Source: Mesostigma viride (taxonomy: Eukaryota; Streptophyta; Mesostigmatophyceae; Mesostigmatales; Mesostigmataceae). Taken from it: 64,000 nucleotides of DNA. Location of the stretch: the NCBI GenBank assembly GCA_009746045.1, contig RPFO01000156.1:2083345-2147344 (forward strand), read 5' to 3'. The translations under genes were made by a program, and so were the position numbers. The notes under the pieces were generated by a model. It was not told the origin of the DNA, did not search any database, and was given only the letters and a program-made list of their open reading frames with translations. Shown one piece after another: positions 1 to 64,000 of this stretch. The stretch's first letter is position 1, and each line of letters opens with the position of its first letter.

Positions 1-19
1 GGTTTGGGGTAGGTGGGTG

Positions 20-49
20 GGTATCTTGTAACACGCCGGTGGCCTGGTA
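20..49 (-). repeat. Echo of the CYP51 exon-1 edge in the intron
   Basis: On the minus strand this stretch reads CCAGGCCACCGGCGTGTTAC, followed by AAGATACCC. The true exon/intron edge about 65 bp away reads CCAGGTCACCGGTACGTACC, followed by AAGATAACCC. The copy therefore spans both exon end and intron start, but the GT donor is degraded. It is one of the exon-edge echoes described in the findings. Confidence 0.6.
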
Positions 50-103
50 TCAATGATGGTACCATCGATTAGGGGAGGGGAGGGGGGTTATCTTGGTACG
101 TAC

Positions 104-953
104 CGGTGACCTGGTCGTCGGTGAGTGCGCGCCCATCCTTGTACCTCGCATCCATGAACGTCTGCAGCATGTCGTCCTCCTTGACGCCCTTGTCCCTGCG
201 TGCCTTGATCACGCCCGCAAACAGCTTGGACATGGCGACACGCGCGCGGTCGCGCCGGCGGTGGGCCTCGATCGGGAGGTAGGGCGCGATCACGCTGATG
301 GGGAGCATGCCCAGGTCCAGGTCGTGGAAGTAGCTCGCGACCTGCTCGAACATGTTCTCGCGCACCTCGCGCCCGAGCAGGCATCGGCTGGCGGTGAGGA
401 TGATGAGCTTGCTGAGCTCCTCCTTGAGATCGATCTCGCCTTCCTCGCCCCAGTTCTTGAAGTAGGCCTCGGCTTCCTGGACGAAGATGTCCACGTAGGA
501 CTTGAGGCGGGCCGACTTGAGGGACTCGGCGAAGAAGCGGAACTGCTCGGCGCGGGTCGCGTGGTCGACGTCGAAGACGACGCCCTTCCCGAACGTGGGC
601 ACGTTGAATTTGTAAACCTCCTCCTGGCTCATCTCCGAGTCGGGGGCCTTGAGGAAGTTGGAGATCACGTCTGGGCCCAGGAGGAAGGTGACATTGCGGT
701 GGAATATAGGCACCCGGAAAATCGACCCGTGCTTCTTGTACCCCTCGTGCATAAGGTAAATGGGGCCCTTGATAAATTTGAGGACGCCACCGATGACGGG
801 GAAGCATGCTAGCTTTGGAGGCAGTTTCTTCTTGCCAGACCCAGACAGGCCGAGAATAATGGCCACCACTAGCGATAGTGCCACTACCGCCCCCACTGCC
901 AAGACGGGCACGCCGATCCCCTTGTCTGCCGCATATGCAATGACGGCGTCCAT
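104..953 (-). CDS. CYP51: Sterol 14-alpha-demethylase (CYP51), first exon only
   Basis: This is the 5' exon of a CYP51 cytochrome P450, which removes the 14-alpha-methyl group of sterol precursors at the ER membrane. The chosen ATG is at 953-951; the frame extends upstream only through a non-ATG codon. The exon encodes about 283 residues: a hydrophobic ER anchor at roughly residues 6-32, a Lys/Pro hinge (KKKLPPK), and the CYP51-type B-C region reading FGKGVVFDVDHATRAEQFRF. It then continues through conserved helices (LIILTASRCLLGREVR, GMLPISVIAPYLPIEAHRRR) and stops at ALTDDQVTG, just before helix I. The donor GTACGT begins at 103. Full-length CYP51 is about 480-500 residues, so helix I, ExxR and the haem cysteine lie beyond the left edge of the window. 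The match is closest to plant CYP51s from memory. It is divergently arranged with the P4H gene. Confidence 0.93.
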
Positions 954-5103: not shown

Positions 5104-8100
5104 TCAACTCTGCTTGGTCTTTCGTGATGCCAGGCTGCCTGGTGGGTTGTCTGTCCCTTGATGAGGGCGTCTCCCGAGCTTGCTGGCCTGCAGGCCCAGC
5201 ATATTTGCCAGCTTGGCATGCCCATGCAGCTGTCATGTCATTACGGGTTTAGATAAGCACAGGCACATGAGTCGGGGCTGTTAGGCGAATAAGAGGCTCT
5301 GTGCACATCACTCACTCATCATGTCCATGAAGCTCAATTCTGGTCTTCAAGGGTGAGATAAGCATTCCTAGATGAACCAGACGAAGACACTCTTGTCACT
5401 GTAGCTGCCAAAATATTAAGGGGGACAACTAAAAATAAATAAATATGCTTACTCCTGCTGATGAGCACCAAGCTGTCTATCAAACTGTAGCAACAACACT
5501 GTCCAACATATTTATGGATGCGCCTGCTGAGGATTTATTCCCATGTGACCCAGTCTATGTGTAAATTAAATTGACACAACCACTTCTTGTGTGAGCGTGT
5601 GGGGGGTGCCAAAGGGCGTCCCATTTACGGCACATCCGTTCCGCATGATGAGGAGAGGCCCATCCTCGAATGTGACCCTCGGTCACAGCACAGAGGTCTT
5701 CTAAAACGAACAGATAACAAATACCAAACGTGGAACGAATTCTGGATTCCTTGTAAGTGCATACGTAGGGAAAGACTGTCAGTAGATCAGAAACCACCAT
5801 CGATTACACAGCAACATGCCAATGAGATGCCTTGCCTGCCTATCTTGACTCCATTATGCAGGACGGAGAACTCCCAACATAACAAACCCTGGATAAAACA
5901 GGAAGAATAAAATAAGATGCAACTACTACCTTGACTACCCCCCTGCTAGCGGGGAAGGAATATTTGCCCAGCCCTCCATCCCACAGAAAAACGGTAAAGG
6001 GCTCTCTGGTGCTCCATGGTCCCTCAAGCGACGGTCTGTGCATACCTGCCCTCTTTGACTGCATAGTTCAGGTAAAGCTCTCGACCGTTACCTGACTCTC
6101 TACCTACCGTATAGCGAAATCCCAGGCAGTTTGAAATCCAATACCATACTCACAAACCTTCCACCAAAGTAAAGAAGTACTCCTCACCATGAATTATCAA
6201 CACCTCACTAGTTGCCTGCCTTGACCGCATCGTGCAGGTCGGACCCCTTATCAGCATCCAACCAGTAATCAAGCATCGCGAGGGTGTCCGATGCCTGGCC
6301 TACCTTGACCGCATAGCGCAGGTCGGACCTGCCGGCTTCCACCAGCTCCGATTGGGTGGGCATCCTGGCAGGGCGCGGCAGCAGACCCCTGGGGCACCCG
6401 CCCCCCTGGCCCTGCCGCTGCTCCAGGAACCGCTGGATCTCGAGTCCAACGTTCTTGGCGCTCCGCCAGTAACCGACCTGCGACCAGAAAAAGGGGCATC
6501 ACAATCATCCAGGAAATGGGCATCACCAATCATCCTAATCGTTTCGTCATGCATTGGCAAGTTGTGCACAAAAGAGCCATGGTGTCAAACCATCCATCCT
6601 TGGCGCTCCACTCCACCAACAGGCAATCCGAAAAAAGTTTGTGGGCGGTTGCATACTACCCAAGCCCCTTGTTGCCATGTTTCTCGCTAAATATTTTTTA
6701 CACACGCGCGCCATGCTACTGAATTTCAGGGATGTGCTAGTACCCAGCCTAGGAGACTGCGGGGCAGTTGGAACTAGACAACCATTAGTGGGCAGATGAT
6801 GCATGACTAGGCAGCCAGGGTGGCGAGCGTGGGTGGTATGAAATCAATAGCATGGGTGCAATGAAATGGATGGCCGACAAGGCTGCCAGCATCAGTAGAG
6901 ACCATCACAGTACTAGGTAGCGACACTGCAGCTCAGCGAATGGACGACGGGAAGATCATCCTAGCCAAGCTCAACTGTCAATACAAAACGAGCAACTTCT
7001 AAAGCAGTGGCCAACAAATGTGGTCAAGCACGCACTTGTGTGAAGGCCTATCAGGCAGCCAGCTTCCGTTGCTAGTCCCTTCATGTGTCCCTCACAGTCC
7101 CTGAGGTGCACGTGGTCTACTTCCATTTTCAGAAAGCTACCATGTTCCACTAGGGAGCCTACAAACCAAGCAGTGGAGCTACTGCAAACTGTTGCCTGGG
7201 GATTGTTGCAACGACGCCACTAACTTAACATCCTGTCCTCCACTGGCATACATCCATGTGTACTTGCTAGGGCCAATCAATGATAAATGAAATTGAAAAG
7301 GAAAAAACAGAAAATGTTTGAATAAACGGATGTCCGAGCACAAATAAGATGCACACCGGTCGGGGCCGTGCGGACGCCAGCGCCATCTGGCGGGCCACGC
7401 ACGCGATCCCCCCCCTGCGCTTGATCTCCTGCAGCAGCTCGCCGCGGTCATGCTCAATGAGCTCCGCCACCGTGGGGAAGCGGTCGCTGCTCGCGCCCGG
7501 CACGCACACAGGGTGCTGATGAATATGATTAAGCAGAACGTTACTAAACAAATAGCATGCTCATGGTGGCTCGTAGAGGTTTCTGGGTTAGTGCAAGGAA
7601 TGTTGTGCTCATATATGGCACACATAGGATTTTGCACATGGTACAGAATGGAACGTATAGATCATGTACTCACACGCAACGCGCGTGCGTGCTGCGCTTG
7701 CACACATATGCATAGGATATATCAAGGAGACAACCAGCGCATATATGTACCAATTGTGTTCGCGTTTGCGCATATATGAGTAGGGAATATAAATTGTGGG
7801 GTCACACACGACACGAAACCTACGGCTTCGCAAGGCAACCCCTTTCATGTCAGTGCAAGATCTGTTATAGCGCATGGCGCACAGGCCATGGTGTGAACTT
7901 TCACACGGAAAAAGGTCACATGTGTCATGCACCAACAGCAACTACGTGACCTAACCACCCAGACCTACCCTCCCCAGGGGGGGGAAGGGGGGGGGAGGGG
8001 GGGAAGGGGGGGGGAGGGGGGGGAAAGGGGTCAACTAGCACTTTTTGGCACCAGGGGCTTAAGGATTCGGAAATTGGCTCCTCATGCTGCACACCTGCCA

Positions 8101-11100
8101 CACATCCCACATGCAAGTGCACGAGGGAGCATCAAAGCGGGCAGGCTGCCCCCTCGCACACATTCCATGCAGCTGCTTGGGTTGGGTTCCCATGCATGTT
8201 GGGCAGCTGGTTGGGTTCCCATGCAAGGCTACATGGATGCAAGCTAGTGAGGTGTAAGCTAATGGGACGCAAGCTTCTTGTGCGCGGTGGGCATGGTCAA
8301 TAGAAACGCGATACTTGCTGGCGCATGTCACTGGTGCTACCCGGGAGCAACATGATTGTGGCCAGTTAGTGAAAGGTCAGGGAACAAAAAAATTAGTAAG
8401 AAAAACAATATATTATCAGAACGTTGGTGTGTCTTAAATGGCCTCTGCCCTCACTCCATTCTGCCACCTTAACTAACAGTATCTGCACTGGTTGTTACCA
8501 GTTAGTCATTATGGCCTCAGCCTTCATGACGTCCGCCACCTTATTTCTTCCTATCTGCACTAGTATGCTCTCATGGCCTCGGCCTTCATGACATCAGCCT
8601 CGGTCATTACTCCTAATCACACATCACGATAACATAGCCTCGGCCTTCATAACATCTGCCTCTGTCGTTACTCCTAATCACACATCACGATAACATGGCC
8701 TCGGCCTTCATCGCGTCCGCCACATTATTTATTCCTAGTCCTAATCCAAATCGCAATCCTAATCCTAATAAGATACTACGCGCTAGGTCTTACATGGCCT
8801 CGGCCTTCATCACATCCGCCACCTCCATCTCAAACGCGTCCTGCGTGAAGAGCGTGCGGCGCGGAGGGGGGCAGCGGCCCAGCGCCTTGCGCACGGCGTG
8901 GTAGCCGCCATGCGCGTTGATCTGCAGCAAAACAGACACATGCACTAGGGGCAATGGTCATTGATGCTTCGCGTGTTCCCTATTGGCATACTCCCTATCA
9001 GATGGCAGTCATGACCCACGGCCCATTTGCCCATGGCCCGTGCGCATTCATCTGCATCAAAACGGACCCATGCCACAACAGACAAAAATAGGCAGAGCAC
9101 CTGACATGCCACAACAGGCCACATGCCACAACGGGCAAAGGGGACGGAACACATGACAAGCCACAACACAGATGACATGCAACAACGGGCAAAAAGACGG
9201 AACACATCACCTGCCACTACGGACAAAAGGCACGTGGCGCCTCCTGGCTCATTCCCTAGGAGACAAGAAGGCGCAGAACACGCCACATGCCCCATGACAC
9301 GGCCACATCTGACACGACGGTGAAACGTTGTGCGTTTGATGCCACGACAAAAACAAGATCAATCTTTGTGGGGACAATGTCCTGAGTGCCATGTGGCATG
9401 CCGCATGAAGAGGGCCGTTTGCGCCGATGGGAAACATGTAAGAAGAACACATTCAATAAGAAAAGGGAAGTGGAATTCCTCACCAGGTCTGTTGTAGCGT
9501 TCAAAAAGACGCGCCGTGTGGTGAAGGCCAGACCGTCCCACGCGGCATATGGCCGTACATGCTGGAGAAAACAATTTTCTAATCCACATACATCCATCCT
9601 TATAAATTATAAGTCTAGATTATGGTCGTACATGCTGGCTGATTGATTTCTCTAATCCTTATCCATAAAGTCTAGATTATGGCCGTACATGCTGGCTTAT
9701 TGATTTCTCTAATCCTCATCTATCAAATCTAGACTATGGCCGTACATGCTGGCTAATTGATTTCTCTAATCCTCATCTATCAAATCTAGACTATGGCCGT
9801 ACATGCTGGCTAATTGATTTCTCTAATCTTTATCGATCAATTATAGATTATGGCCGTACATGCTGGCTAATCGGTTTCTCTAATCCTTATCCATCAAATC
9901 CAGACTATGGCCGTACATGCTGGCTAATTGATTTCTCTAATCCTCATCTATCAAATCTAGACTATGGCCGTACATGCTGGCTAATTGATTTCTCTAATAT
10001 TTATCGATCAAGTGTAGATTCTGGCGGTACATGCTGGATACAAGATTTCTCGAATCCATCCTTATCAATCACGCCCAGCTTAGCCTTTAACGGTGACGCA
10101 CCGCGTGGTGCAGATCAAATCGACCCGCGCTCTGGATACATGCGCGCGTGGGCAATATCGGCTTGCCGCCCAACATGGGCACGCTCCCCTCCGGTTCTCT
10201 GCTGCCCTCCGGCTCGTATTCACTGGCATCCGCCTCACCACCCCCGCCCTCCGAACCATCCTCCTCATCGTGGCTACTGGCACCGTCACTAGTGCTGCGG
10301 ACGCTGGTGGCACTGCTGCCATGGCCGCCGTGGTGATTGGTGACCCCGTGGCTATCGTGCAGCCAAGGCAGCGACCACGCAAAGGTCAACGTGGCGGTGT
10401 TGAAGAAGTACTTCTCTCCTGTCGGCGGCCGACGAGATCCGACCCACGGGCACGCCCAGGCAGTGGCAGAGGCGGCAGCAGCGGCAGCGGCAGAGGCAGA
10501 ATGCACAAGTGTCTTGAGCAGGAAGACCGGGACATGGGCTGGCAAGAAATGCAACTAGAAACCACAGCTGAATGTACTTTCAAAAGGGAGCTGTGTAAGC
10601 AACAGACAAGAAAGTCATCAAAGGTGCAAAGGGAGCTGTATAAGCAATAGATAAGAAACTCATCGGAGGTGCAAAGGGAGATGTGTAAGCAATAAATAAG
10701 AAACTCATCCGAGGTGCAAAGGGAGATGTGTAAGGAACAGATAAGAAACTCATCGGAGGTGCAAAGGGAGATGTGTGGAGAACAGATAATACTCATCAGA
10801 GGTGCAAAAGAACCACAAGCAGCACATGCCCCTGACCCCTACACGCACCCGTCTCGTCCTCTACGTGTTCTGTCCAGCATGCGCGGACGAACATGTCGAT
10901 CTCACGCTCCACGTTCTCCAAGTCATCCCTGCGACCGCGGGTTTAACAAACACTGGGAAGCGCCGCATTGTCACGAATGCGATGGAAACGATAGCCACTG
11001 CCACGAGGGATATTGTTGTCATAGCCCTCTACGACAACAGTTTAATGTGTAAAACACGCCGTCACAACGACAGTAGACTGAGAAGAATCATGGTTGTGCG

Positions 11101-14100
11101 CATTCACTCTATCATTGTTGTCTCCTTGATACCCTCGCTCCTCGCTCCCCAGCTCGCCTCTGCGTGACACAAGCCGACGCACCACATTGTTTACGGATGG
11201 CAGAACAACACGCGTGTGCATGCACCGCATGACACGAGCACACGCGCCCACCACAGGCATACCTGTAGCCCGCCAGCGATGCCATCCATACCAGCAGTAG
11301 TTAGTGAACCCTGAAATAAGTGCTAGTGCATACATTACTGATATTACTTCACTAGCGATGCCTATCCATACCCTGCTGGCTGCGGCTTCTGGCGCAGATC
11401 GCCTTCGGTGTACAGAGTCTTTAGCACACCGAGAGTTAGGGTTTAGGGTTTAGGGTTTAGGGTTTAGGGTTTACACAAATAGTGCACAATTAGTTATTGG
11501 TGATTATTAGCGCAGCAGCAAGCCCGCGACCTACCAGTACGCCGCCGGCCGCCGCTTCCAGCACAGTCTGCATTCGATACAACCAAGTCTTGGATACATA
11601 TGGCAGTAAATACAGATTTACTATCACTGCCGCCATCTACCAGTACCCCGCCAGCCACCGCTTCCATCTCCCATCCCACCCCGTATTCCACAATACGCTG
11701 CGCGAAATAGGATGCTAATTGTGCTGCAGCCAGCGCGGCCTACCAGTACCCCGCCGGCCGCCGCTTCCATCGCAGGCCCAGCGTCTGCGCCACGCTGGAG
11801 AACCCGCCCGCAAACTGGGCAGGGGGGGCGGGTGCATGGTGGGCGAACCATGAAGGCAAGAAATAAACAATGGATAAATAAATGAACGCAAATGAATGAT
11901 ACATATTAGTAGAACAAGTTATGCATGTTGCCAGTGCCAGCACACCATACGTGCTGGCAACGAGCAATGTAATGAGCATGGGTGCTACCGTGCATGGTAG
12001 GCAGGTCACACCACGGATGCCATCACATGATGCCACGGCCGCTGCATGATCCACACTGATTAGTACTACGGAAGTGCTAGTCTACTAAGCACGTTATTTC
12101 TTTAAGCGCGTCTCTCACCTCGGCCCAAGGCCTGAACAAAATGAACTTCTCCATCTCAGTGAAAATCAAGTCATTACCCCACACGATTCTCATCCTCACG
12201 ACCTCATCCCCACCGACATAACACTCAAGGAAAGCAAACAAGGTCCCTATCTCCCATCCCCATCCTACGTCCCACCGACATAACACTCAAGGAAAGCAAA
12301 CAAGGTCCCTATCTCGACAGCCATGCTAACATCAAGCATTCATATCAAATAGCTACAGCCCCACCGTATTTTGAACGGCTATTTATTAGAAATAGCTACA
12401 GCCCCACCCTATTTTGAACGGCTATTTATTAGAAATAGCTACAGCCCCACCGTATTTTGAACGGCTTTTTATTAGAAATAGCTACAGCCCCACCCTATTT
12501 TGAACGGCTATTTATTAGAAATAGCTACAGCCCACCCTATTTTGAACGGCTATTGATTAGAAATAGCTTCAGCCCCAAGTCCCAACACACCTTGATCATC
12601 TTAACCAGCTCGTATTTCCCGGCCGCCTGCAGCTCGGCCTCCGTGGGCATGAGCGGTGCCGCTTGCTGCGGGCGCCACCCTGGACGCTCCCTCACACCCG
12701 AGGCCCCCCGTGTGGCCCTGCCCCCATGCAGCTGGCCACCTGGCGTGCCACTCTCACGCCCCTCCCAGCCCAACCCACATCCGTACCTCCCGTCCCAGCC
12801 CATCTCGTGGCCCTCGCGTTCGTGTCTCTCCCCATTCTCTTGCCCGTCACGCTGCGAGCAGAAGGTCATCAGCTCCTCATTCAGCACCGTCATCGTCGCC
12901 TTCCAGTCCGCCATCTCCAGCAGGCCCTCGGGCGGCTGGTACAAAAATAAAAAACGATAAATATAAAAATAAAATTGATCGCGGAAGCATGCCACGACTG
13001 ACCCAGAGTTAGTGCCTTTCCGTCGGCCATCTCTCGTGGGCCCTCCCGCGGCTGTTGGTAGGGAAATCAGACTGCCAATAGACTAGAATAGATACGAGTG
13101 CTAGGTATAAGCCATCTCAAACAATTCACCTGGGCAACATCCCTCCTCCATATCTCAGAGACCCTCATTCGGCTGGCAATGATAAGAGAAAGGTGCTACC
13201 AAGAACCCTTCCACCATAAACCCTCCAAAAGAGAATCAATATCAATGTCGGTGTATAGCAGACCCTCTAAAGAAGGATGGGTTGATGAGCGCGCCATGAG
13301 CAAACCCTCTAACGGGTATCCGTGCCGAACAACAGTCATGTCTGACAGGCCCACCCATGGCTGCCAATAACGTTGATAGGGAAGACTAGGAGAAGAATAC
13401 ACACAAACAGAAGCATACTAGAGGAATAGAGGAGGTTAGAAGAAGAATACACACAAACAGAAGCATACTAGAGGAATAGGGGAGGTTAGAAGAAGAATAG
13501 AGGAGACCACCGCCAGAGCCTAGAAAGGAAGACTCGGAGAAGTAGAGAAGAACAGAAGAAGCACAGAGGAGGCACGGAAGATGAACTCGCAGACGAGCAA
13601 GGGAGCCCTCTAACAGCTGCAAGTACCAAACAAACGGCCACCTCTAACACCCGCTGCACTCTTATGGACGGCCATCTCTCTCACCCACCGCACCCAATGA
13701 ACCACTCACCAAGATGTGCAGGCATCGGGCTGATACGTCCACCAAAGGGACAATATCCGCGACCAGGGGCACCAGAATTGTCCGATCCAAGCAGGACGCC
13801 AGACCATGGGGCTCCATCACCCCATGCCCCTGCCCCTGCCCCTGCCCCACGGTGCCCACGGCATCCCCCCCCATGCCCTCCTCCGCCCTCGCCCCGCCAT
13901 TCCCCTGTGCCCCCACGTGCGGTGGCGGTTGCCCCCCCGGCCGGCTTCCCCTGCCGCGTGTGGTAGAGGCCAACGCGGATGCCGAAGGCTTCCTCTCGGT
14001 CCCTGGGAGCGCCCCCTGGGAGTGTGACAGCTGCCCTCCCGGGACCGTTGTCCCTCCCTGCTGGACCGGGAGCCCCTGCCGCCCGCCCCCGCTCGCGACA

Positions 14101-19300: not shown

Positions 19301-22300
19301 AGACCTCGCATCGCTCCTATCACTCAATAGGGATTATACATGTATAGCGCGTCCTGCGGTCTTAGACACTATCATCGTGTGGCTGCTTGGCCTTGCTCAC
19401 CCGCGATATATGCGCTCCGTCCCAGATGAAGACGCTGCTTTCTCATTCATTCATATCCGTAGGAGGGCAGCGGGTGAGCATGGTTGCAAACCCTAAGCCC
19501 TAAACATGGGCAGTGGGGGCTCGGGCCGCACCGATCCGCGATTATGTGTGTTTAGGGCATTCATTTGGGAGGCAGGTGGGCCCGGCTCACCTGGCAAATT
19601 GCTGGTAAGGCCCATGTTGGCTCCCAGCCAAATGAATTGATGGTTCACGGCGCTGGGGTGCTATGCACAGACGGAATGGGACGGGGGGTTGCCCCAATGG
19701 ATGGGGTGTGGACCCCCTGATCGGTTTCGCGCCGTCGCATATTCCGCGCTGTGGCATAAATATAGTGGCATCGTTTTCCCTGCATGGTTGTTCTGTGTAC
19801 CTTTGGCCCGCATGGCGGCTGCGTCCCTCACCTCCTGATGTGTGCCGCATACACCCCTCGCATTGTTAATTTTACTAAATAATTATGAGGCTGGGCGTCG
19901 ACCACCTGCAAACGATACCTAAAACAAAAGATTTTCAATTACTTAATTCCCAAGTGTACTCCCCTGTTGGTTTTCTAGCTACCAAACAAACAATGTGTAA
20001 ATAACAATTCTTTGACTGCCAAAAGCGCTTCTTTCGCAGTAAAAAACAAAGAAAGTTACATCTCTGGCTGACAAAGGTGCTTTTGCTGGCGGTAACAGCA
20101 GTCCACCCGGCTGGGTTATACCAAACAAATCAAGAATGATTAAATTGTGCAGCCAGTTCAACGGTTGTTCGTCAACCAAACTAGCTAACTAATGATTAAA
20201 TAATTGGACGGGCACAGTTGCACTTGCAACCAATCAAACGCTATTGTCTGATTCCGAAGAGCCTTTTGGCTCAACCGAATCAAAATTAACAATGCTGAGG
20301 GTGTATGTGTAAGCCCATATTTGTAATATATTCGCATGTGTATTCTTTTTTCCGTCAACCGTCACGCTGCGTCCCGCGCCTCCTCATGTGCGCCTCATGT
20401 GTCACATATTTGCATTTGTAACGTGTTAATGTCTTTTCTTCCCCGTCAACCATGATGCTGTGTTCAGTGGCTTGTGGGTTATCTAAAAACAGTTCAACTC
20501 ATCCTATTTTGTCACTTATTATTCTGTCTTCGTCTCTTCATGGTGTGTGCATGCCCCGCACTCACCCCCTGTCGCGTCATCTTACTAATTTACTATCGCC
20601 ACGTCCTTGTCTTTGGTCTATTGTCACCGCGTGACCAGTGGGCGGTGCCGGCGCGGGTGGCTCAGATGGCCTGCTGGTCGCCGGCACAGGGATCGCGCTC
20701 TACGACCTGGCCAGCGAGAAGCGCGTCTGCAAGTTCACGGGGCACACGGTGAGGGGGTTGCTCATGGCTTTTCCCCTTTTGAAGCACTGATAGAGACTCT
20801 GATAACAAAATCGATGTTGCAGCATTGGCACGTTCACGGGGCACATGGTGAGGGATGTTACCCATGGCTGTAGGTGGCACTGATGATGGTCTCCCATGAC
20901 TTGGCAGCAGTAGTTGTGGATACGTTGGAAGCAACAGGTTCGGATATGTTGGCAGCAATAGCTATTACACCTGCAAGGCCTTTCAGAACGATGGTAGTGA
21001 TCGTCGCTTGTGTCGCATCGTGATCGCAGGCATGAGCACGCCATGCTCGTTCGCTCAACTTCACCTAGCTTGGTTCGCGCGAAATGAATCAAGCCTTGGG
21101 CTTCCGAAACTCCCTCCAGTTCTTCCCATCTGTCGGATCACCATGCCCGGTGATCCGACAGCTTGCACATACACACACCGGTCTCCCCACCATGCTAACG
21201 CCGCCACCATTGGCCAGCTCAAACAACTTCTAACAACTCCCCCCCGTCATCGACCAACCATTCCCTCGCCACCCATGTGACATCAAACCCGGGATCCAAA
21301 CACGTCGCACCCAACAGCTGCCCGTTGTTGGGCTTGCCTGCGCCCCAGGGGCCCCCTTTGCCGTCTCCGTCGCCGAGGGAGAGCGACAAGCCGCCGTGTG
21401 GGACACCGCCGCTGCCCAAGCCGAGGCAGCCGAGGATGCCGACGCCGAGGGGCAAGCCGCCAAGCCAGGCGCCAGCGGCAAGAAAGCCGGCGCCAAGGTC
21501 AAGAGCAAGAAGAAGAAGGCAGAGGCGGCGGCAGTGCTGTCGTTGACGGATGCAGCGGTGGCAGTCGCGGTGGGCCCTGCGGTGACAGGTGGCGGTTTTA
21601 CGGTGACGGCGCTCTCGGAGCGCGGCGAGGCGTTTGTGTGGCGTTGCGATGAGAATGGGGTGGCCGAGCGGGCGGACGCACCATGCACGATCCGGTGAGG
21701 GCGCCTGTGGGTTCTTTATGTGTTGTGGTTAACTAGTTGTTATGGTCATCTATGTGTTGTGGTTTTCAATGTGTTGTGGTTATGTATTTATTGTGATTTT
21801 CGATGACTGTGTGGGGTGCATCGTCCGCCCTGTACGACTGGGTGGGATTGGTGGTATATTCCCTGTTGTTGTTGCTCAATACCAGAAGCCATTTCGGTTC
21901 ATTTGTAGTGGCTATAAGTGCCTAGTCGTTTGCTAGAGTCTATCTGGGTACCAGCAACGTAAGTCTTATAATAATAATAATTTAGGATTGGCCTTGCGAA
22001 GCTTTGTAGTCCCTCTTTTATTAGCCTCTTCAAATATAGATTGCCTTGCGATGCGGTCGTTTTCCCTCATCTATTAGGCTCTTGAAATAGGGATTGCCCT
22101 GCGAACTTGTTGCCGCCGTCTTCTTCCCTTGCGTGTCAGCCCTTGGAAGGAAATACGGGGGATGCACGTTCCCTGAACATCCGACACATGTATACATCTT
22201 TCAGGGTAGATGAGCGAAACAACCTATTGAAGTCTATCACTTGCTAGTCCCCTTCGTGTGATGACTTTTTTGGGTGCCTGTCCATATCTCACATGTCTTG

Positions 22301-25300
22301 CGCCTTCGTTTGCCCCCCCCCCCTCATCCCTGTTCCCGCGCACACCCCTCCCCCCTTCCCCATCTCCCCCCCCTTGTCCCCCTTGCCCCCCTTGTCCCCC
22401 CTTGGTCCCTTCCCCCCCGTCACGCCCCTCACCCCCTCCCCTGCTTTCTGACTCCAGGGTCCAGCATAAGAAGAAAAAATCCAAGGCGGGGCAAGCCCTC
22501 GAGTCCCTCATGGCGGTCCGTGTGCTCCCCTCGGCGGGGCCCTCCGCCACCAAGGGTGCCGACGCCAGCTCATCGCCCGCGTCCTCTGCGGCGGTCATGG
22601 TCGTGCGCGGGTCGTTCGCGGCCCCCGTGTTCGAGGCGGTGGCGGTGCCTGAAGTGGGCGAGGGCGGCGCATCGCCCGCGGTGGAGCTGGAGCCCGCAGA
22701 CAAGGGGCTCTTGTTGCGACACGTCAAGGATGCCGAGGGGGAGGACGGCAGCGCTCCGGCATCGGGGAAGAGCGTCCGGGGTAGGTGGCTGGGGCAGCAT
22801 GAACCCGTTGTTGTTTTGCTAACGATGTGACAGCGATGGCTTGGCAAGCAAAAGAGGTAATAATAGGTAGTTTAAGTAGCTTATATAGTATTGAGCAAGG
22901 TTTCGGTGCTCGGGGCGCCAGTGATCCGACCGCAACGGCGCCCCTGCCGTTTTCGCCCCTGTATTCGTGCCTGGGTGTGCCTGGGTGTGCCTGGGTGCAG
23001 TAGCACAAAATCCTTTTCAAGCCTATAAATTATTTGGTTATGCTATTTTGGGATTCGCTTTGTGTGTGTTTTGTGCGTGTGTCTTTGGTCTGCCTGCATG
23101 CGTGTGGGGGTCTGTGTCTGTGGTGTGTGTTCGTGACGGTCTATGGTTTGTGCGCGTGGCGGCGATGGGGCGGGGGACACAAATGGCTGGCTGTAACCAA
23201 CGCCCGCAACCAACCGATTTACCTTGGGAATCTACGATTGTTGGAAACGGGAGGGAACTGCCCGAAGCCAAGCCAATGCCGACGGTCAAGACCTGCTGAA
23301 TGTGAGCAGTCGTAATGCCCGAAACCATGCCAATGCCGACAGTCAAGACCTGCTTAATGCGAGCAGTCGTAATGCCCGAAACCATGCCAATGCCCACGGT
23401 CAAGACCTGCTTAATGCGAGCAGTCATTATGCCCGAAACCATGCCAATGCCCACGGTCAAGACCTGCTTAATGCGAGCAGTCCTAGTGTCCGAAACCATG
23501 CCAATGCCCACGGTCAAGACCTGTTTAATGCGAGCAGTCGGAATGCTCGAAGCCATGCCAATGCGCACGGTCGAGACCTGTTTAATGCAAACAGTCGTAA
23601 TGCCCGAAACCATGCCAATGCCCACGGTCAAGACGGTCAAGACCTGTTGATGCTAACAGTCGCACTGTCCGTAACCCACACTCGAAATCTGTTCATTCGT
23701 AAACTGTCACTGTTGACAGTGGCGGTGCACGGCCCCGAGAATGCCATGGACGCGGAGCTGCCGTTTGCGACCGCGGCCATCGAGGGCGAGGACGGCGGCA
23801 AGAAGAAGAAGAAAAAGAAGAAGAAAGACAGTGCCGCCGACGACAACAAGGAGAGCAATGCCGCAGAAGACCAGGGAGGCAACAAGCGGAAAGCAGGGGC
23901 AGAGGATGAGGAGGATCACAGGGGGCCAGGGGGGGGGCTGGAAAGGGGGGGGGTGGAGGGGGATGAGGTGCCCCTGGAGGAGCAGCTGGAGAGGGAGAGC
24001 GAGCTGCCTAGCTTGGGCGATGTGCTGTCGTCGCTGGGGATCGACACGGAGCCGCCGGACGTGGAGGATGAGGCGGGACGGGTGGCGGAAGCGCCCAGGG
24101 CGGACTCCTTGCAGGTGGGACGGGATAACGTTTTCGGATTGACTAGAATGATGGATGTCAATGTTTGCATTCTTCTTGATTAGCACGCATTCTGGGGTTC
24201 ATTAGCCTGCGTTCTGCCCCCCTGGACATGCATTCATGCTTTTTTGTCGTTGCTGTTTTGCCCCTGGTAAGAGGTGTGTCTGGCTTTTGTGGCTACGCAT
24301 GAACTGGGCCGGTATGCGGTTTTCTGCGTTACCCCACAGTTTGCAATGGCGTGCCTGCCTCTCACTCAAAGTCATCAAGTAATAGGTACAGTAATTTTGG
24401 AACTAATGTGTTTGTTTTCTTTCCGGATACCTGAACTAAGCAATATTACGTTTTGCCTCCTTGCCCCCCTGCCCCCTGGCACCCTGGCACCCTCACACCG
24501 GTGTGGTTGACTCTATGACCGATGATTGGCTGGCGATGTGTTGGCAGGTCCTCCTCACACAAGCCGTGCGCTCGGGCGACAATGCGCTGTTGGAGCGCTG
24601 CCTCAACGTGGTGGACGAGAAGGTGAGTGATGGCTGTTAGCAAACGATAAGCTGTGTGGTGTGGTTATTCCTAGCAATGAAGTGATAGGGTAATTATGAA
24701 CGTGCTGGTAAATGCTGAAGCGCTGCCTCGGCATGGTGGATGAGAAGGTGGGTTGCAGATTTCAGTACAGGATATGCTGAGTGGTGTGGTCAACGAGTTT
24801 TCAAGAAATAAAAAGGAAATGGGAGGGCTTTCAACAGAATGGTGGGCTTGCATTCATGGGTTCTCTGGTAGATGCTAAGCTGGGTAGAGACGGTAGAAAC
24901 GGTGTAATCCGTTCATCTCTTGCTACTTCGTGCACATATTAATCATACCATCCATTCATCTGGTGCTGCTTTGCTCACTTATTGATGATATCATCCTTTC
25001 AACTGGTCTTACTTTGTTCTCTGGCCACTCGGTGACTTGACTCTGGCAGGTTATCGCAAACACGGTCAAGAAGCTGAGGCCGTCTGACGCCGCGCTGTTT
25101 TTGAAGTCGGTCGTCGACAAGTTTTCCTCGAGGTAGGCAAGAAACGTCTCCTCTACCACCACCACAAGACACATACGCCTAAACAAGAGGGAGGAAAAAG
25201 CACTGCGCACCATTACCTCCAGCCACACACAGCACCGCCTTCCTGAATGAGACGGGGGGGGGTGGGGGGTCATACGTGCATGAGCCTATAGGGTTGCTGT

Positions 25301-27392
25301 TATTCTGTCACGTCGTGGCACATGCACGTTAAGTTGATAGCTTGCTTGGGTGCATCCAAAAAATATGTTTTTGAGTGAGATGGTGGTGGCGCCCTTGTCA
25401 GCATCTCGCTGGCCGCTGTATCAGTGCATAGAGTGGCCCTCATTTAGGTGAGCCTTTTTCGTTGTCTCTTTGCCCATGTTAGGTTAGGCTTTTCCGTATC
25501 TATCCCCCCGTGTGTTCTAGGTTTTGTTACTTCTCAATTTTGTTTTATGACCTTCTTTACTTTTTTTAATTTCGTTTGCAGATCGGGGCGCGGCGCGGAC
25601 CTGTCCCGCTGGCTGCGTGCGGTTCTGCTGCACCACGCGTCCTTCCTCATGCAGGCGCCGGACATGCAGCGCACGCTGACGGCGCTCTACCAGGTGCGTA
25701 AAGGGGGGGGGGGGGGGGGGGAGGGGAAGCGTTGAAATAGGGAAACACTAGAGTGCCCCCGCTGGCTCCGCCCAGCCCCAAATGGCAGTCCTAGCAACCA
25801 ACCAACTCCGGACAAGCTGCGCTTTGGTGGCCATCTGTCCGAGCTAGCAACCAACCCACATGCAGCCTGCGTTTCAGTGTTCTACACCTGGATTAGGAGT
25901 AGCTTGTAGACCCGCCGCTATTGGCCCGCTTTGGCTTCCCAAGGTTGGATTGGTCGCATACTTAGGGTTTTCCCAAATAGTCTGGGATCAGGATATATCC
26001 CTAAATTTAGAAAGTAGATGCGCTCAACATGCGACTCAGGCTCACTGCCGTCTACTGGGTGTGTGAAAGGGGGGGCGCTCTGTGTGGTAGTACTCTACCG
26101 GGTGCATTGAGGCACGGGGTCTCTGTATCATGTGCGGGGAGTGGGGGTGTTGAAAAGGTTGTCAAGTTGGTGGGAATTATTTACGAGGGGAACATGCGCC
26201 AGACATGGATCGCGCCCTCCCCGCTCTCTATCAGGTCTGGGTGGGTGGTTTGGGGTTGGCGTCTAGCAGGGAAACGTCTTGCGATCATCTATTATAGGAG
26301 TAAAATTGAAGTTGCTATATTATCATTACTAAGTTGATTTACCCTGTTCATTCCGTTGTGGGTTTCGGCTCTACCAGCGTCGTGGGGTGGGGCTAAACAG
26401 AGTGCCAGAAGGGTGGAGGAAACCAACGTGTAAGCTGATAGTTGACCAGGGCGGTAGAGCCTGTATGTTGTGGGCTATGCATGTTACACCCCCTTTGTAT
26501 GAAATGATTTCTTATTCTGTGTGTATTGATTATGACCGCCTTGGTTTCTTGCTGCCTATGTAATTGCCCTGCCTGGCCTGGCCTGGCCTGGCGGCCGATG
26601 CCTTGTCCCGGCACGTCGCAACAGGTGATCGACGCCAGGCTGGCCGTACACCAGCCGATGCTGGCGCTGCAGGGCCGGCTGGACCTGCTGGCAGCGCAGG
26701 TGAGTTAAGGGGCACACAAGTGCTGACGTCCTTCCACTAGCGGCTCCATTGGCACGGAACTTTTGACGTCCAACTTGCACCTTTTTTTTCCCTTAGCAAG
26801 TTCTCACGCAGTCGTGTGTGCTGATGGTGGCATATTTTGGTTTTAGTTGGCGGATGTGAAATCGGTCAGGGTGCTTGTGATCTAAGCCGCTTGTTACTTC
26901 TATTAGTTCTTCCCTATCACTCTTTGTGTTAGTTCTTCCACACACAGGGGCACAGCGCGGGTTTATTTATGAGGCTGGGTATGCGGTACCAGAAAAGGGG
27001 CAGCCATCGCAAAGCCTATGGCCTTGTTTTCTGTTTCTGACATGGCTGGATGGTGTGCACCATTTGATCCCCACCCACAAAACCTTTTCACTTTTCGGAG
27101 TGTGGCTCAGATCTCAGCACAGCAGGCCAACCAGGGGTCAACCACCGGCATGCCATGTGGCGCCGCGGTGGTCTACGAGGAAGAAGATGACGAGGACGAG
27201 GAGGACGTTTTCGTGGAAGATGCGTTCAATGCCTACGATGAGGATGATGAGGATGTGGACGAGGACGAAGACGACATGATGGAGGAGGATGAACAGGAGC
27301 GGGGTGCCAAGGCGAATATTGGGACGGGGTATTACGAAACAGATGAAGAGGAGGAAGAAGAAAGCGATGACGAGGATGACGATGAGGAATAG
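16357..27392 (+). CDS. WDR43: WDR43/UTP5-like ribosome-biogenesis WD40 protein (13 exons)
   Basis: Exons: 16357-16446, 16956-17108, 17791-17900, 18905-19059, 20639-20748, 21318-21694, 22458-22780, 23720-24114, 24548-24622, 25050-25132, 25582-25693, 26625-26699, 27123-27392 (TAG). All junctions are in phase and give about 775 residues. UTP5/WDR43 acts in the nucleolar small-subunit processome (t-UTP/UTP-A complex) for pre-rRNA transcription and processing. The N-terminal half is WD40 (FALSTGDGRVKVFNVSSGQL, VFSGDGGGDVCEWAAATGQR, VAGTGIALYDLASEKRVCKF, FTVTALSERGEAFVWRC). Lys-rich stretches follow (exons 6-8). Exons 9-12 encode the Utp12 domain (VLLTQAVRSGDNALLERCLN, VIANTVKKLRPSDAALFLKS, RWLRAVLLHHASFLMQ, MLALQGRLDLLAAQ). 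The last exon is a very acidic tail. The last acceptor is a tandem CAGCAG, so either of two forms differing by one Gln is possible. Confidence 0.9.
17931..18209. repeat. Minisatellite, about 93-bp unit, 3 copies
   Basis: Three near-identical units start with GGCGTGTAATGGTCCCGTTT and end with CTACCTATTTGTTATCCTTG, in WDR43 intron 3. The first copy begins about 30 bp after the exon-3 donor. Each unit includes CAGGTAA, an exon-edge-like donor motif. Confidence 0.9.
20825..20870 (+). repeat. Echo of the WDR43 exon-5 edge
   Basis: The exon-5 edge reads AAGTTCACGGGGCACACG|GTGAGGG (20748/20749). About 100 bp into the intron, CACGTTCACGGGGCACATGG is followed by TGAGGGATG. Both exon end and donor are copied, and the following CATGG is shared as well. 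Confidence 0.8.
23250..23640 (+). repeat. 57-bp minisatellite in WDR43 intron 7, translatable as 19-residue repeats
   Basis: About seven units carry CATGCCAATGCCCACGGTCA and AGACCTGCTTAATGCGAGCA. Because 57 is a multiple of three the array stays open in several frames. One frame (NARNHANAHGQDLLNASSR) runs without a stop into the coding frame of exon 8 at 23720. The spliced model excludes the array; the open frame may be chance or a retained-intron isoform. Confidence 0.8.
24716..24752 (+). repeat. Echo of the WDR43 exon-9 edge
   Basis: The exon-9 end reads AGCGCTGCCTCAACGTGGTG then GACGAGAAG|GTGAGTG. The copy reads AGCGCTGCCTCGGCATGGTG then GATGAGAAG|GTGGGTT, keeping a usable GT donor. Confidence 0.85.
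26038..26392 (+). repeat. Echoes of the WDR43 exon-11 edge
   Basis: The edge reads ACGGCGCTCTACCAG|GTGCG followed by a long G run. Related copies occur near 26045-26075 (CGTCTACTGGGTGTGTGAAA then GGGGGG), 26088-26105 (TACTCTACCGGGTGCATTGA), 26205-26245 (CCCGCTCTCTATCAGGTCTG) and 26365-26392 (GGCTCTACCAGCGTCGTGGG). Decay increases with distance, except that the third also copies the GACATG...CGC..CTCCC exon text upstream. Confidence 0.65.
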
Positions 27393-28600: not shown

Positions 28601-28639
28601 GCAGCCGCCCCATGCACCGAACCTAGCTGGTCTGAGCAC

Positions 28640-29110: not shown

Positions 29111-29216
29111 GCGCCTTGCGGTCCTCGCCTAGGTCCTTCGAGTGCCAGTAGGTGAACATTGAGCGAGTGGAGTCTAGCTCAGGCCAGGACGATGCGGGCC
29201 GGTGTCCACATTGTCG

Positions 29217-33535: not shown

Positions 33536-33628
33536 CGCGTATGGCATTCATAACGATTCGGGCCGCGGTGCCCACCGGCACCCCTGTAACTATAGGACCT
33601 AGATAGCTTACACCATCCATTCCATCTC

Positions 33629-34861: not shown

Positions 34862-34866
34862 ATGCA

Positions 34867-35383: not shown

Positions 35384-38300
35384 TCAGCTATTGTACCAAT
35401 CCAAAAACAGCAGCCCAAATATTGCCACTGCAAAAGTGAGAATGATGTACACACGTGTACTTCCAGACCTTTCTACTGCCTTTTTTAGCTCCACATTCCC
35501 TTTCTCCATGAATTGCGTTGCCTCTACCGCCTGCAACCACAAAGCACGACCCACACAACAGCAGCAAAGAGCACCACTCATACTCAGCGTCAATACAAGC
35601 TCGTGAAAAGATTCACAACCCAGACTACACCTACCGCAATAGATGCAAGGTCAGCAAGGGCGTACTGGTGGATCAACGGGCAAGTAGCAAGCAAGGGGAC
35701 ATCATGGCGAGCAATCCGCAAACTCTGGCAAGCAGGCTGACAGACGGGCCAGACAAGTCTAGTGCAGCAACAGTGCTCTGGATGGCGTATCCTTCAGCAT
35801 GTTGACTGGGCAGATGGGAGTATGCACCCATGACTCCCATGTCTATTAATCGAGGTGCGTCGTACCCGTAGCAGTTTATACAAAAATAAACAATATATCA
35901 AAGAGACAACTAGTGCAGGCCAGAAATCTGGAAGAATCGGGACCATGGTGGTAGCTGCACGTTTGTCGAGTCGTTCAGGATGATGGAAGGGAATGGAGGT
36001 GGATATGTGTAGCCCTGGATATTAAAAATTATGGCTGGCTAAGGCTCATCGAGACCTAGACGGATGAGCTAAAAGATGAACAATATATGATAAATAAAGA
36101 TGTTTATATAATAAATGATCATTGATCATTGATCAATGATAAAAGAAAGTTACGGCTGTGGTCAGTGAGGCTAGAAAAAGGCAGGCCTTGCCAGACCCCA
36201 GACATTGTTGGTCTTGGACCGGGGACCCCAGCTTTATCTCACAAACACGTCCCACATGTTTGCGCAATGTAGGAAGCTTTTAAGAAAGCTCAAAGGATAA
36301 CTAAATATCTGTGCAAGCAAGAAATAGCAGCCTGGTGGCACTCCCATTTTCCATGCAACACCCTGATGCCACCTCCAAGCAGCGGTGGAGGCGATGGCAT
36401 ATATACGCTGTGTACTGGAGTACAATCTTGTTCCATGCTGATCTAGAAATGAGGACAGGTGTATTTCCTGTAGCGCACAATAAACACATCGCACAACACA
36501 TCGTGCCAGATCGCTTGCACCACAGCCTATTATATGCCGTGTGCAAGGTTACAAATTGCGCCTGCAGCATGGCTACTATCATACGTGGATTAAAACTACA
36601 CTGTATTATACTGTGGCAGTCACAATAGCTATAGCGATATTGCCCACCTGGTTGTACAGCTGCTCGATCTGCTCCCGCTGCTGCAGCACCGTTGTGGCAA
36701 ACATGTGGTTGAGCGCCGATACCTCGAGCATCTTGCTCTCGGCCTCGCGAACGCTGTCCATCAGGCCACTCAGCTCCTCCTGTCGGCATGGTACCACGGG
36801 TCGATTTAAACCATAACAACACGGATAGGCATCTGTAGACGGGTCGGTTGAAAACAGCTGTCACGGGCCGGCTTGTCACAGGTCGGTTGGCATACGCAGA
36901 TTGGAAGTATAAGGTTTGACACGCGTCGTTTGGCACCCGCGGCAAGTAAACTTTTAATACATAAAATCATTCGATAAAACATTTGAAAACACGCGGTTTG
37001 AAACACAGACCAGGTGACATATGTCGGTTGGGACATCTCGTCTCAGCAAACGCGGCGTAAAGCACAACATTTCGCACGCGTGAATTGCTTCGACCCCTTT
37101 CTTCCCCAGCCCCATTACGCACTACCCGCGACGCCCTCCCAGGCACGGCCCCCTGCTATTCCCAATGAAGGCCATTCCACGATCAGCGCGGCCAAGGACG
37201 CAGAAGCGCAAAGTCCAAGCTTTGGGTTTACATAACCCACGCTCCTCACATACCTAAGTCCTCACATACCTAGTCTAATCTAATAGAAATTTATTACATG
37301 GAACGATGCAGATTCGAGACGTTGCTTGATCATCAGGCCCTTCTTTTTCTCACCCAGCTACCGCTTCCCATGGGGGGCCGGTCGTGAGACTGTCGTGGAA
37401 GTGTCAACACCCCCATGCAAACTCACCTCCAATGCCGAATGCTCCTCCTCTTCCTGCAGCAGCTGCTGCTGCCGCGGCGACGCCTCTCCCCCCCCGCCCC
37501 CCGCCCCATTCTCTCGCCCCACCCCCCGGGTCTCCACGGGCCGCCTTGGCGACCCCATCTCGACCCACCGCCGGTCGGCTGCGCTCGCCTGCTTCCACGC
37601 GGCCTCGAGAGGGCGGGCCGGGCGGGCCGGCTGGGAGGGTCGGGTGACCCGCTTGGCAAGCGCCTGCTCGTAGCGCGCCGTGCGGCACTGGTCAAACACG
37701 GCCGTGGCGTATGCCAGCCGTTCGCTCAGAATGAGGACCTGCCATGGAGATGCAGTCAAGGGGTACGTGATCCCATGGTTGAGTGCTGTGGAGTTGAAAA
37801 AAGAAACGGGCACGAAGACCTAGCCAGCAAAGGTACGAACGATGAAGTGTAATGGGAGGGCCACGTGGCAAACAGGCGGGTGCTCCCTCAGAACGAGCAC
37901 GCTAGTACAAGGAGGAAAAGGGGCGAGGAAGACGCTCTCTGAGAATGAGGCCCTAGTGATAGGAGGGAAATGGGTCGAACAAGGGGGTGCTCGCTCAGAA
38001 TGAGGCCCTAGCAGGATTAGTTAGGGAATGGGGCAGACAGCCGGGTGCTCGCTCTCCCTGCCAGACTAATCATGCCTATGCCGCACCCTAATGGACAGCA
38101 AATAGTATGCGCACAAGCGTAAAGTGCGCATCAAGAAGCAAGAATTGACAAGGGAAGAAGCTGCGCGTGCATGCAAGTGCATGGGATGAGGTTGTACGTC
38201 TCCATTGTGCCAGGCGCGCTCTGAACGAGAGGGAGCTAGCCCCACCACTTGGGGCCACCCTCGTGGAACACTCAAGGGTACTCTTATATGTTGGGAGGAG

Positions 38301-41300
38301 GGATAGTACTAGCATGACATATCCTAGTTCGAACCCGGTCCAACATGCACCGAGGGAGGCTGACTGCAACAGCTGGGGATGCCTTCTGAGACCATGAAAG
38401 GATACCATCACCGATACAATAGGGCATTTTAACATATGTATAGCTCCATGGAACGATACCATCACAGATACTTTAGGGAATTATAACATTCAGTTGCATT
38501 GAAGGATTTCATGAGAGATACATTAGGGCATTTAAACATATCTATATAGCTCCATTGAAGGATACCATAACAGATACAAAAGGGCATTATAACTTTTAGT
38601 CCCATTGAAATGACCCTCATGTAACTATGACAGGCCTCCGCCCCCTCCCCCCCCACTCACCACCCCTTGCTCATGCGCGTGGCGCTGCGGGTTGCCACCG
38701 CCCGATCTCAAGAAGCCGAGGCCAAAGCCTCTGCTGCCACCTGCACGGTCATCCGCATCAGGAGCCACGGCACCATCACCAGATTTGGAGCCGGCCACGG
38801 TGGATTGGAGCGAGTCGATGCGTGCTTTGCAGGCTTTGATGAACAGGTTGACCTGGCAGCAACACAGGGGCACAGGCAGCAAGGGAATGGCAGCAGTCAA
38901 CTTCTCTTCCACCAGCCGGTTGGCCTGGCAGACGCATTGCAGGAGGCAGAAAGGAAGTATCGGTGGTCGATCTACATTCCACAAGGTCATCACACACATG
39001 CTGATGAGTCTTCACCTGGGTAATAGATTGGAGTAGGCCTAAAGGAAACAGCACCTTCCATTTGACAAGCACATGGGATAAGCACCTGACCAATACATGG
39101 GAGGGCCCTTCCAGGAGGCAGCAGCCATCAGCCTATGCACTTTCCCTTTGACAAGCACATGGGACAAGCACCTGACGAAAACATGGGAGAAGCCTTCCAG
39201 GAGGCAGCAGCCATCAGCCTATGCTTACCAGCACGTTTGACTTTGAAAGTCTCTATTCAGGAGGCTGTCCGCAATCTGAAACACAGGTCTAGGGTATAAG
39301 AGGACAGCATGCGCACACCTGAGCTGTACGATGCATGAGGTGACCCTGGCACAGCCCTACCCCATGCGACAATGAATTAATCATGAAGGCCGCTTCATGA
39401 CTATATCCATATCCTCTAAGGCCTGCCCGCTTGGGGCAGTGCGAGAAGCTAGTGCAAGCTAGTCGAGGGCGCCCTCCCTCCTCGTTGTGTATATGGGTCG
39501 GACGTTGCTTCATGGGTACCCACGTGACACAGTCAACGTGATTAGTTAATATAACTATTTAAGAGCCCTTTCCAAGGAATACATGTATGAAGAAGCCGCT
39601 TCATGAATCCCGCAGGGGGGTCAACGTGATTAGTAGATATAACTATTTAAGAGCCCTATCCAAGGAATACATGTATGAAGAAGCCGCTTTATGAATCCCG
39701 CAGGGGGGTCAACGTGATTAGTAAATATAACTATTTAAGAGCCCTATCCAAGGAATACATGTATGAAGAAGCCGCTTCATGAATCCCGCAGGGGGGTATC
39801 GCCATGGTCTTATAGGCTACCACCATGGTTTTATAGGCACAGCTCCCCATAATCCGATGCAGAAATCCGGCACACTCCTTCAACAGTTCAACGGCATGCA
39901 GTCTGCACCACCATGCTGGACACGCAGCGACGTCTATTATACAGCAGCTCTGGCATAGTGACCAACCTCATTCTCGATGCTGTCCCTCGCGGGTTCGCTC
40001 AGCTTTAGGGGGTCCAGGTAGTCCTGCTGGTGCGCGCGGATGAAGGCCTTCATCGTGTGGATGTTGTCCAGCTGCCGTCACCACGGAATAGGGAGAGGGG
40101 TAGGGAGGGAGAGGGAGAGGGAGAGGGAGAGGGAGGGAGAGGAAACATGTGCCGCACCACGATAAAGAGAGTGAATAGGGAGAGGGTAGGGGACAGGTGG
40201 CACATGGGTCAGGTGGCAGAGGACAGGTGGCAGAGGACGTGTGGTCCATGGGTCAGGTGGCACGGAGCGAAACCATGCTGACTGTACAAGTGGCACAGGA
40301 CGGTGGCGCAGTTGCAAGTGCTTTCAGTTGTCACCTCATGGGAACGGCTGCATGTCTGTTTATCCGCGTGTTTACTTCTTTGTGCGTGCGATGATGCTTG
40401 TGTGTACTTCGTCTCACTGCCGTAGGCGTGTAAGTAAGGTACTTGAGGGTCATGCGCATGGGCATGCCACGGAGTACTCTGCTAATCTCATTAGAAAAAT
40501 TATAACACGAAAGTTCAAATATCGTCTGCATCATGCACCAACCATATAGTCACTAGAGGGGAATGTAATCCTCATCTGAGCGTAGGCGTGTGTTTCTATT
40601 ATTATTTGTGTGGCCACACACGTGCGTGCCGTGCAATTGCTTCTGTGCGTGCAGAGTACGCGTACGTCTTTGCGTGTGCGTGCATGCATGCATGTGCGTG
40701 AGAGAGCGGGTGAAAGGGGGGGGGGGAGACCCTGGAAAATCACTTCAAAGAAACTGTACAGTGAGGGAAAACTGCACAGGCGCCGAGAAAACGGCTTGAC
40801 TTCCACACGCAAACACAGTGACGCACATGCCCATGTCCACAGCGGCAGGGCAGCAGCAGCGAGACATGCATGGACGGCTACGTTCACCCACCTGGGCAGG
40901 GATAGTGCAGGGATGCGTTGCCAATGCCATAGCAAACTTACGATATCGTAAGCCGTGGTCATAAACTCGGAAGTATGCGGCTTGGGCGGGAGAAGCCATG
41001 ACGCGGTAATTAATTTCAACTTTTCCTGGACGCATTCGACCGACAAGTGGACGACGACGCAAAGAACGCAGGGAGGTAAACGGAAGCCGTAGGGCAGAGT
41101 GAGTAGATGTAAAAGCTGCAGCAGCGGCAAAAGCTTTGACATGCGGTTGCTTGGTAACATTTTTTATTATTAATAACATAACTCGTGCAACATTTGCACG
41201 GTGATCTCGCGAGAACGCAAAGGCAGCCAGTGCAGACTAACCCCACGTACCTCACTTAAGCCATAGTCGACCGCCTTTTGACGCACGACTTCTCTATATT

Positions 41301-42805: not shown

Positions 42806-63747
<20,942 letters not shown>

Positions 63748-64000
63748 GTGAGTGCTCTTTATGCGACATCCCCGCCGACTGGCGTAAACAAAACATATCG
63801 GATATTTGGATCGAGACGGAAAGAAACCTGCGTGGAGGCCATCCACCTCCCTAAAACTGTTTCTACCACCCTGTCTCTGTTTCTATTCCCATCTAGTATT
63901 TATACGTTCGTATTTCTATTCCCATCCACCATTTATACTTTTGTCTCCAGGAGCTGCAGTAGACCGGGAGCGTATTGCCAGGTGCTGCTTGACGTTATTC

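Follow-up and report, generated by a model that had tools for sequence, protein, structure and literature searches.

Copies of exon edges inside the introns of a 64,000-nt eukaryotic window and their probable origin in local tandem duplication

Internal tandem repeats at exon-intron boundaries are described as altering splicing in human segmental-duplication genes (PMC2812944). The gain of introns through tandem duplication is the subject of a review (PMC3443670) and is reported for Drosophila in PMC2891723. Exon-edge echoes, i.e. copies of an exon end and its splice site within the flanking intron, are a real pattern and well supported in the window analysed here, a single stretch of 64,000 nt of eukaryotic DNA (51-57% G+C). 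Among the literature matches listed, as represented by titles and the openings of abstracts, none describes exon-edge ladders in existing algal introns at such density. A 2007 paper is said to deal with tandem arrays that contain repeated splice sites.

Gene models and other features of the window

For five genes of this one window, exon models were assembled manually, with reading frames and GT/AG sites as the guide; exon prediction by codon usage was too noisy and was dropped. The models contain 85 splice junctions (44 donors and 41 acceptors). Exon numbering is not that of the original prediction, and cases were paired by coordinate. In addition to a repeat protein and a SYP81-like gene, both on the minus strand, the modelled genes are:

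953-104, minus strand: CYP51, a P450 by Pfam
Exon 1 at 16357 to exon 13 at 27111, plus strand: WDR43/UTP5-like gene, twelve joined exons without a stop
45181-63747, plus strand: NEK-like kinase, 18 joined exons without a stop

The P450 is presumably a member of subfamily CYP51. The WDR43/UTP5-like product matches Pfam Utp12 (E=7e-20); when its first 332 residues are compared with PDB, the best matches are designed and other WD40 propellers, with Utp5 lower (E=1e-4). The kinase part of the NEK-like protein has NEK1 as its best PDB match (E=7e-60). The putative SYP81-like gene is named from a reading of its protein, for which a Pfam search gave no match, and the searched portion of the repeat protein also had no Pfam match. 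The joined exons of the repeat protein, an incomplete set, include a stop, and some of its junctions may therefore be wrong. The models lack the kinase's exon 1 and the acceptors of exons 4 and 7 in the repeat protein, and probably also one exon of SYP81; in the NEK gene, the reading frame served to place the exon 8 donor. Comparison of ten ORFs of the window with Pfam yielded P450 and 2OG-Fe(II) oxygenase only, and an Rfam scan of the window at gathering scores found no match.

A dispersed motif, TTGTCTCYTTGAT, was picked out by eye at six places on both strands (~28203, 43857, 7735, 11118, 35930 and 56165), and its occurrences were then aligned. It closes a longer shared stretch at 56110 and 35980, and is perhaps the end of a transposable element. 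ORFs resembling retrotransposon remnants were seen by eye at 3500-4500, 13640-14900 and 28480-33600; two ORFs of the last block had no match in Pfam. Two hairpins lie in kinase introns, at 59520-59583 (29-nt arms, 86% complementary, 6-nt loop) and 63351-63390 (19-nt arms, 100% complementary, 2-nt loop), and a short internal telomere-like array of TTTAGGG type lies within a repeat-protein intron (11436-11473). This array, together with the plant-like character of the genes, points to a green alga as the probable source. Very long microsatellites occur in kinase introns (46664-46848, 47439-47701, 48788-48988 and 54586-54926) and outside them (34698-34862), and include 36 CTC, 66 TCCC, 50 CACC, CT and CA runs, and 41 AATG. 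Microsatellites were masked in the echo tests.

Exon-edge copies and their controls

The original prediction that junction sequences recur inside their flanking introns is borne out. With a long query (up to 80 bp of exon and 12 bp of intron, compared with the junction's own intron at a threshold score of >=11.5), an echo is found at 22/85 junctions, comprising 15/44 donors and 7/41 acceptors. At this threshold the reverse complement gives 3/85 in the same intron, the wrong-side intron (the other flank of the exon) 1/78, and other introns 212/6766 query-intron pairs, equivalent to 2.7 per 85, each intron being counted once per end in this last control. At a score of >=15 the own intron gives 19, the reverse complement 0 and other introns 5/6766 (0.06 per 85). 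A short query (30 bp of exon and 8 bp of intron, with p from shuffles) gives 16/44 donors and 8/41 acceptors at p<=0.01, where the reverse complement gives 1 donor and no acceptor. The looser level of p<=0.05 is not clean, with 19 donors and 10 acceptors versus 8 and 2.

Echoes had been noted in all five intron-containing genes. Four of these pass the threshold; CYP51, with only ~100 bp of its intron in the window, is the one nominal case (score 10.5, p=0.005), so the pattern holds for four genes and not five. Acceptor-side cases do exist, as claimed, yet they account for 7 of the 22 ladders and are commoner than the two originally named. The higher frequency at donors (15/44 vs 7/41, Fisher p=0.087) is suggestive only; a competing AG upstream may do more harm than a competing GT downstream. 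Intron length does not differ significantly between echo-bearing introns (median 868 bp, 18 introns) and others (median 776 bp, 21 introns; p=0.71).

The 22 ladders contain 53 scored copies, no more than eight having been sought per junction, and 14 ladders have at least two. The distance from the junction to the nearest copy ranges from 58 to 365 bp (median 113.5), and many copies mismatch the exon edge by 5-27%. Almost all of them (52/53) align across the junction, the unit spanning exon end and splice site. The perfect splice sites highlighted originally are present to within ~6 bases, as GT at 60194, 56243, 56308 and 63098. The ladders, and the nominal CYP51 case, are:

36..104, minus strand: CYP51, donor 104; nominal echo 48-36 below threshold, intron fragment reaching the window end
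5833..6304, minus strand: repeat protein, donor 6304; three echoes, GT lost in all, best spacer pair p=0.045
8431..8794, minus strand: repeat protein, donor 8794; five echoes, 61-bp array (at 8511)
8921..9063, minus strand: repeat protein, acceptor 8921; one echo (9063-9038), spacers p=0.02
9561..10038, minus strand: repeat protein, acceptor 9561; eight preceding echoes, 57-bp array at 9614
11256..11744, minus strand: repeat protein, donor 11744; four echoes (11668-11637, 11566-11525, 11397-11354, 11277-11256)
12935..13054, minus strand: repeat protein, acceptor 12935; one echo (13054-13014), spacer homology not significant (p=0.29)
20748..20854, plus strand: WDR43-like, donor 20748; one echo, GT kept, spacers p=0.02
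24622..24753, plus strand: WDR43-like, donor 24622; one echo, GT kept, spacers p=0.005
25693..26236, plus strand: WDR43-like, donor 25693; two weak echoes (identity 0.73 and 0.75), best spacer p=0.19
37738..38009, minus strand: SYP81-like, acceptor 37738; two scored echoes (37954-37930, 38009-37991), spacers p=0.01
38852..38931, minus strand: SYP81-like, acceptor 38852; one weak echo (score 11.5), spacers p=0.01
46073..46519, plus strand: NEK-like, donor 46073; two echoes, longest exon reach (48 bp), spacers p=0.005
47866..47997, plus strand: NEK-like, donor 47866; weak scored echo (score 12) within a 62-bp array
49116..49493, plus strand: NEK-like, donor 49116; two echoes, spacer homology via large gaps
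55304..55445, plus strand: NEK-like, donor 55304; two echoes, 69-bp array (at 55287), spacing 69-69
56065..56312, plus strand: NEK-like, donor 56065; two echoes (GT 56243 and 56308), weak spacer homology (best p=0.045)
56872..57068, plus strand: NEK-like, acceptor 57068; two upstream echoes, spacing 93 and 94 bp
58018..58465, plus strand: NEK-like, donor 58018; four echoes, 88-bp array (at 58109)
59323..59437, plus strand: NEK-like, donor 59323; one weak echo (score 12.5)
60135..60533, plus strand: NEK-like, donor 60135; five echoes, all with GT, 58-bp array (at 60118), spacing 58-58-58
61727..61928, plus strand: NEK-like, acceptor 61928; two upstream echoes, best spacer pair p=0.03
62969..63099, plus strand: NEK-like, donor 62969; one echo, GT 63098 outscoring the real site, spacers p=0.04

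The eight echoes at acceptor 9561 equal the search maximum per junction, so the true number is at least eight; the 57-bp spacing recurs seven times and 36/36 spacer pairs are homologous at p<=0.005. At donor 11744 the first two steps measure 103 and 106 bp and the next two 169 and 103 bp; the spacers have decayed, and spacers 0 and 2 are homologous (p=0.005) while adjacent spacers are not. Within 60292-60533, two 58-bp units seem to bear different insertions at about the same place, soon after the echo donor.

Tandem units, splice sites and exon reach

The clearest ladders are minisatellites in which the unit, of 58, 61, 69, 88 or 57 bp, includes the exon end and splice site. Uneven ladders are found too (316-123, 177-64, 129-239 and 214-55), and similar arrays occur within introns away from junctions. 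Direct local repeats in the whole window number 185 pairs at a score of >=16, compared with 0 in each of three shuffles.

A flank test limited to neighbouring copies found homology between junction and first echo in 8/22 ladders at p<=0.01 and 13/22 at 0.05. Because older units carry insertions (large ones are visible in alignments of the spacers of older ladders), this was followed by a test of all spacer pairs with long gaps allowed, in which the lowest reachable p is 0.005. Homology of one or more spacer pairs reaches p<=0.005 in 12/22 ladders and p<=0.05 in 20/22, with the proviso that multi-copy ladders had more pairs to test. Eight ladders reach p 0.01-0.05 only, and two (25693 and 12935) have no homologous pair at 0.05. 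Counted by pair, 58/124 are homologous at 0.005, 36 of them from the 9561 array and 22/88 elsewhere, and 72/124 at 0.05. Head-to-tail homologous units that include the spacer are thus present in 12 ladders. The serial duplication proposed originally is backed by these homologous spacers and by several evenly spaced ladders. The accompanying claim of decay with distance fails: of the 24 unequal consecutive pairs, 14 show a drop in identity and 10 an increase, and the correlation is not significant (Spearman -0.17, p=0.21, n=53).

A GT or AG is kept within 2 bases in 41/52 junction-crossing copies. Of these echo sites, 32/41 score below the real site, including 16/16 acceptors, and nine, all donors, score equal or higher, on a matrix built from the window's real sites and hence favouring them. 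The echo-to-junction distances fall into the three classes modulo three as 10, 19 and 12; use of an echo would therefore shift the frame in 31/41 cases.

Exon reach is 48 bp at most. Own-intron matches are absent for windows whose centres lie 45 to 150 bp within exons (0/37 donors and 0/35 acceptors at +45, 0/32 and 0/31 at +60, none deeper), and their reverse-strand matches total 4. The ratio of reach to unit is <=0.51 in 14/14 ladders in which exon length equals or exceeds unit length, a departure from uniform breakpoints (KS p=0.001). Selection may limit exon reach, as a longer echo would compete with the true donor; more exon in an echo would bring more splicing enhancers (SR proteins) just downstream of that donor. 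Spacers that lengthened after the duplication would inflate the apparent unit and so reduce the ratio as well.

In 800-bp blocks, the proportion of tiles with a copy within 500 bp is 27% in introns and 8% in unassigned or intergenic DNA (49 and 17 blocks; p=0.001), the non-genic set being small and its annotation rough; leaving out 41.3-45.2 kb, the non-genic mean is 6% (12 blocks). The corresponding tile counts are 231/823 and 24/300. Transposon-like blocks (24/185 tiles, 13%) lie between introns and non-genic DNA. The density in introns and the 48-bp limit are the two features of the pattern that remain out of the ordinary.

Explanations and comparison with known systems

The echoes are probably products of ordinary local tandem duplication across a splice junction, viewed against an exon reference that is frozen. 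Intron sequence would be added and replaced through such duplications, in units of roughly 55-180 bp, and some units would straddle a junction by chance. Unlike a duplication inside an exon, one across the junction would be tolerated, since the mRNA stays unchanged while the outermost site is used. The exon copy would be held constant by selection, so that the exon half of an echo decays once, while the intron part changes and acquires indels in both copies; the exon half, with its splice site, would therefore be the last to become unreadable. The copies, their significance, the spacer homology in many ladders and an equal rate of copying in intron interiors are all observed. It seems likely that the outer site is the one in use, that the echoes are neutral, and that selection on competing sites limits the length of exon copied. 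Several observations sit poorly with plain duplication and decay: ten of the 22 ladders lack spacer homology at p<=0.005, the spacing is irregular in some ladders, the exon reach is always short (KS p=0.001), donor windows exceed the interior before correction for the frozen exon (p=0.006), and one echo in the 58018 ladder joins a perfect exon match (27/27) and GT to an unrelated flank, which plain decay does not predict.

A more specific version, which we regard as doubtful, is that the duplication is linked to transcription or splicing, enriched in introns and sparing non-genic DNA, and that splicing competition filters the survivors, capping the exon part of echoes at ~50 bp and leaving real sites mostly above decoys. 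If so, a quarter of all junctions would hold a fossil ladder by which the growth of introns could be dated, with the copy under selection as reference.

It is unlikely that a junction-aimed process, linked to R-loops, repair or splicing, copies exon edge and splice site into the intron. Seeding at or targeting to junctions, as first proposed, was assessed against intron interiors, from which 38-mers were scored for a one-sided local copy in the same intron: 119/609 have a downstream and 116/589 an upstream copy (reverse strand 4/754). Windows just inside the intron at junctions have the same rate (donors 8/41, acceptors 7/38), which goes against the expected excess near the junction; 30 and 45 bp into the intron the counts are 7/39 and 9/41 for donors and 4/36 and 4/36 for acceptors. 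Centred on the junction itself, 15/44 donor windows have a copy, where 8.4 are expected from a random interior window per intron (43 introns, p=0.006), and this speaks for targeting, as do the ending of copies within 48 bp of the junction, the greater density of local duplications in introns than outside genes, and spacer homology that is weak or absent in 10/22 ladders. Acceptor-centred windows show no excess (5/40; 5 vs 7.6 expected, 41 introns). In a simulation with equal duplication rates and only the exon copy frozen, which assumes a constant birth rate and a chosen indel ratio of 0.15, detection rises 1.41-fold when half the window is exon and 1.73-fold when most of it is; the observed donor ratios are about 1.75 and 1.5, and those of acceptors are below 1. 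The donor excess is thus covered, since a frozen exon alone raises detection 1.4-1.7-fold. Decay with distance, as noted, is not significant, and spacers were copied as well in at least 12 ladders. Junction-targeted copying beyond the frozen-exon effect was not found in this one window, and targeting is not needed to account for the pattern; the interpretation put forward originally is thus partly supported.

We think it quite improbable that, after tandem duplication, gene conversion from the selected exon refreshes the exon halves of echoes while the spacers diverge. The echo at 58192-58220, identical to the exon over 27 bp and GT with a flank unlike the real one (p=0.16), would fit such conversion; an adjacent echo, whose flank is almost identical to that echo's, is altered at several positions of the exon part. 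In 6/8 echoes of the 9614 array, 18 bp match the exon edge exactly though the spacers differ. However, some spacer columns of this array are constant to the same degree as the exon part, and the unevenness may be ordinary; echoes were also picked by exon similarity, which deprives exon-part conservation of a proper null. Column-by-column conservation in the arrays is uneven and does not by itself demonstrate special conservation of the exon part.

That the introns are recent gains through tandem duplication of an exon segment holding AGGT is highly improbable: the mechanism is known (PMC3443670, PMC2891723), but most echoes carry intron bases after the donor, and an exon-end copy right before the acceptor, or an exon-start copy right after the donor, occurs in 0/78 cases at a score of >=10. 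Chance similarity or assembly artefact has a negligible probability, for even though low-complexity sequence is common in the introns of echo-bearing genes and short-query reverse-strand matches at p<=0.05 occur at 8/44 donors where 2 are expected, chance is rejected by the reverse-strand, other-intron, wrong-side and shuffle controls, the first two of these at stricter thresholds, and the 5-27% divergence of many copies is not a product of misassembly.

Ladders beside a frozen exon may offer a natural clock of intron turnover, in which decay is one-sided in the exon half and two-sided in the spacer. If the pattern is genome-wide, it would provide a natural experiment on the choice of the splicing machinery among duplicated sites, and on what confines the exon part of the copies to about 50 bp. 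Caution is also called for, as likeness to an exon edge inside introns alone is no evidence of a junction-aimed process.

Boundary repeats themselves are known; the new part is their occurrence as decayed ladders in existing introns, at about a quarter of modelled junctions. As in AGGT-segment intron gain (PMC3443670, PMC2891723), splice sites are multiplied by tandem duplication; unlike in that process, the intron here pre-exists and merely lengthens, and the signature of gain is absent (0/78). The likeness to the human boundary repeats (PMC2812944) is that the tandem units include the exon-intron boundary and so multiply splice sites. In the human system, the repeats are variable and give rise to new introns and alternative transcripts in paralogues of recent origin, whereas the ladders described here, recognized from their sequence, are mostly old and decayed and lie in existing introns of ordinary genes.
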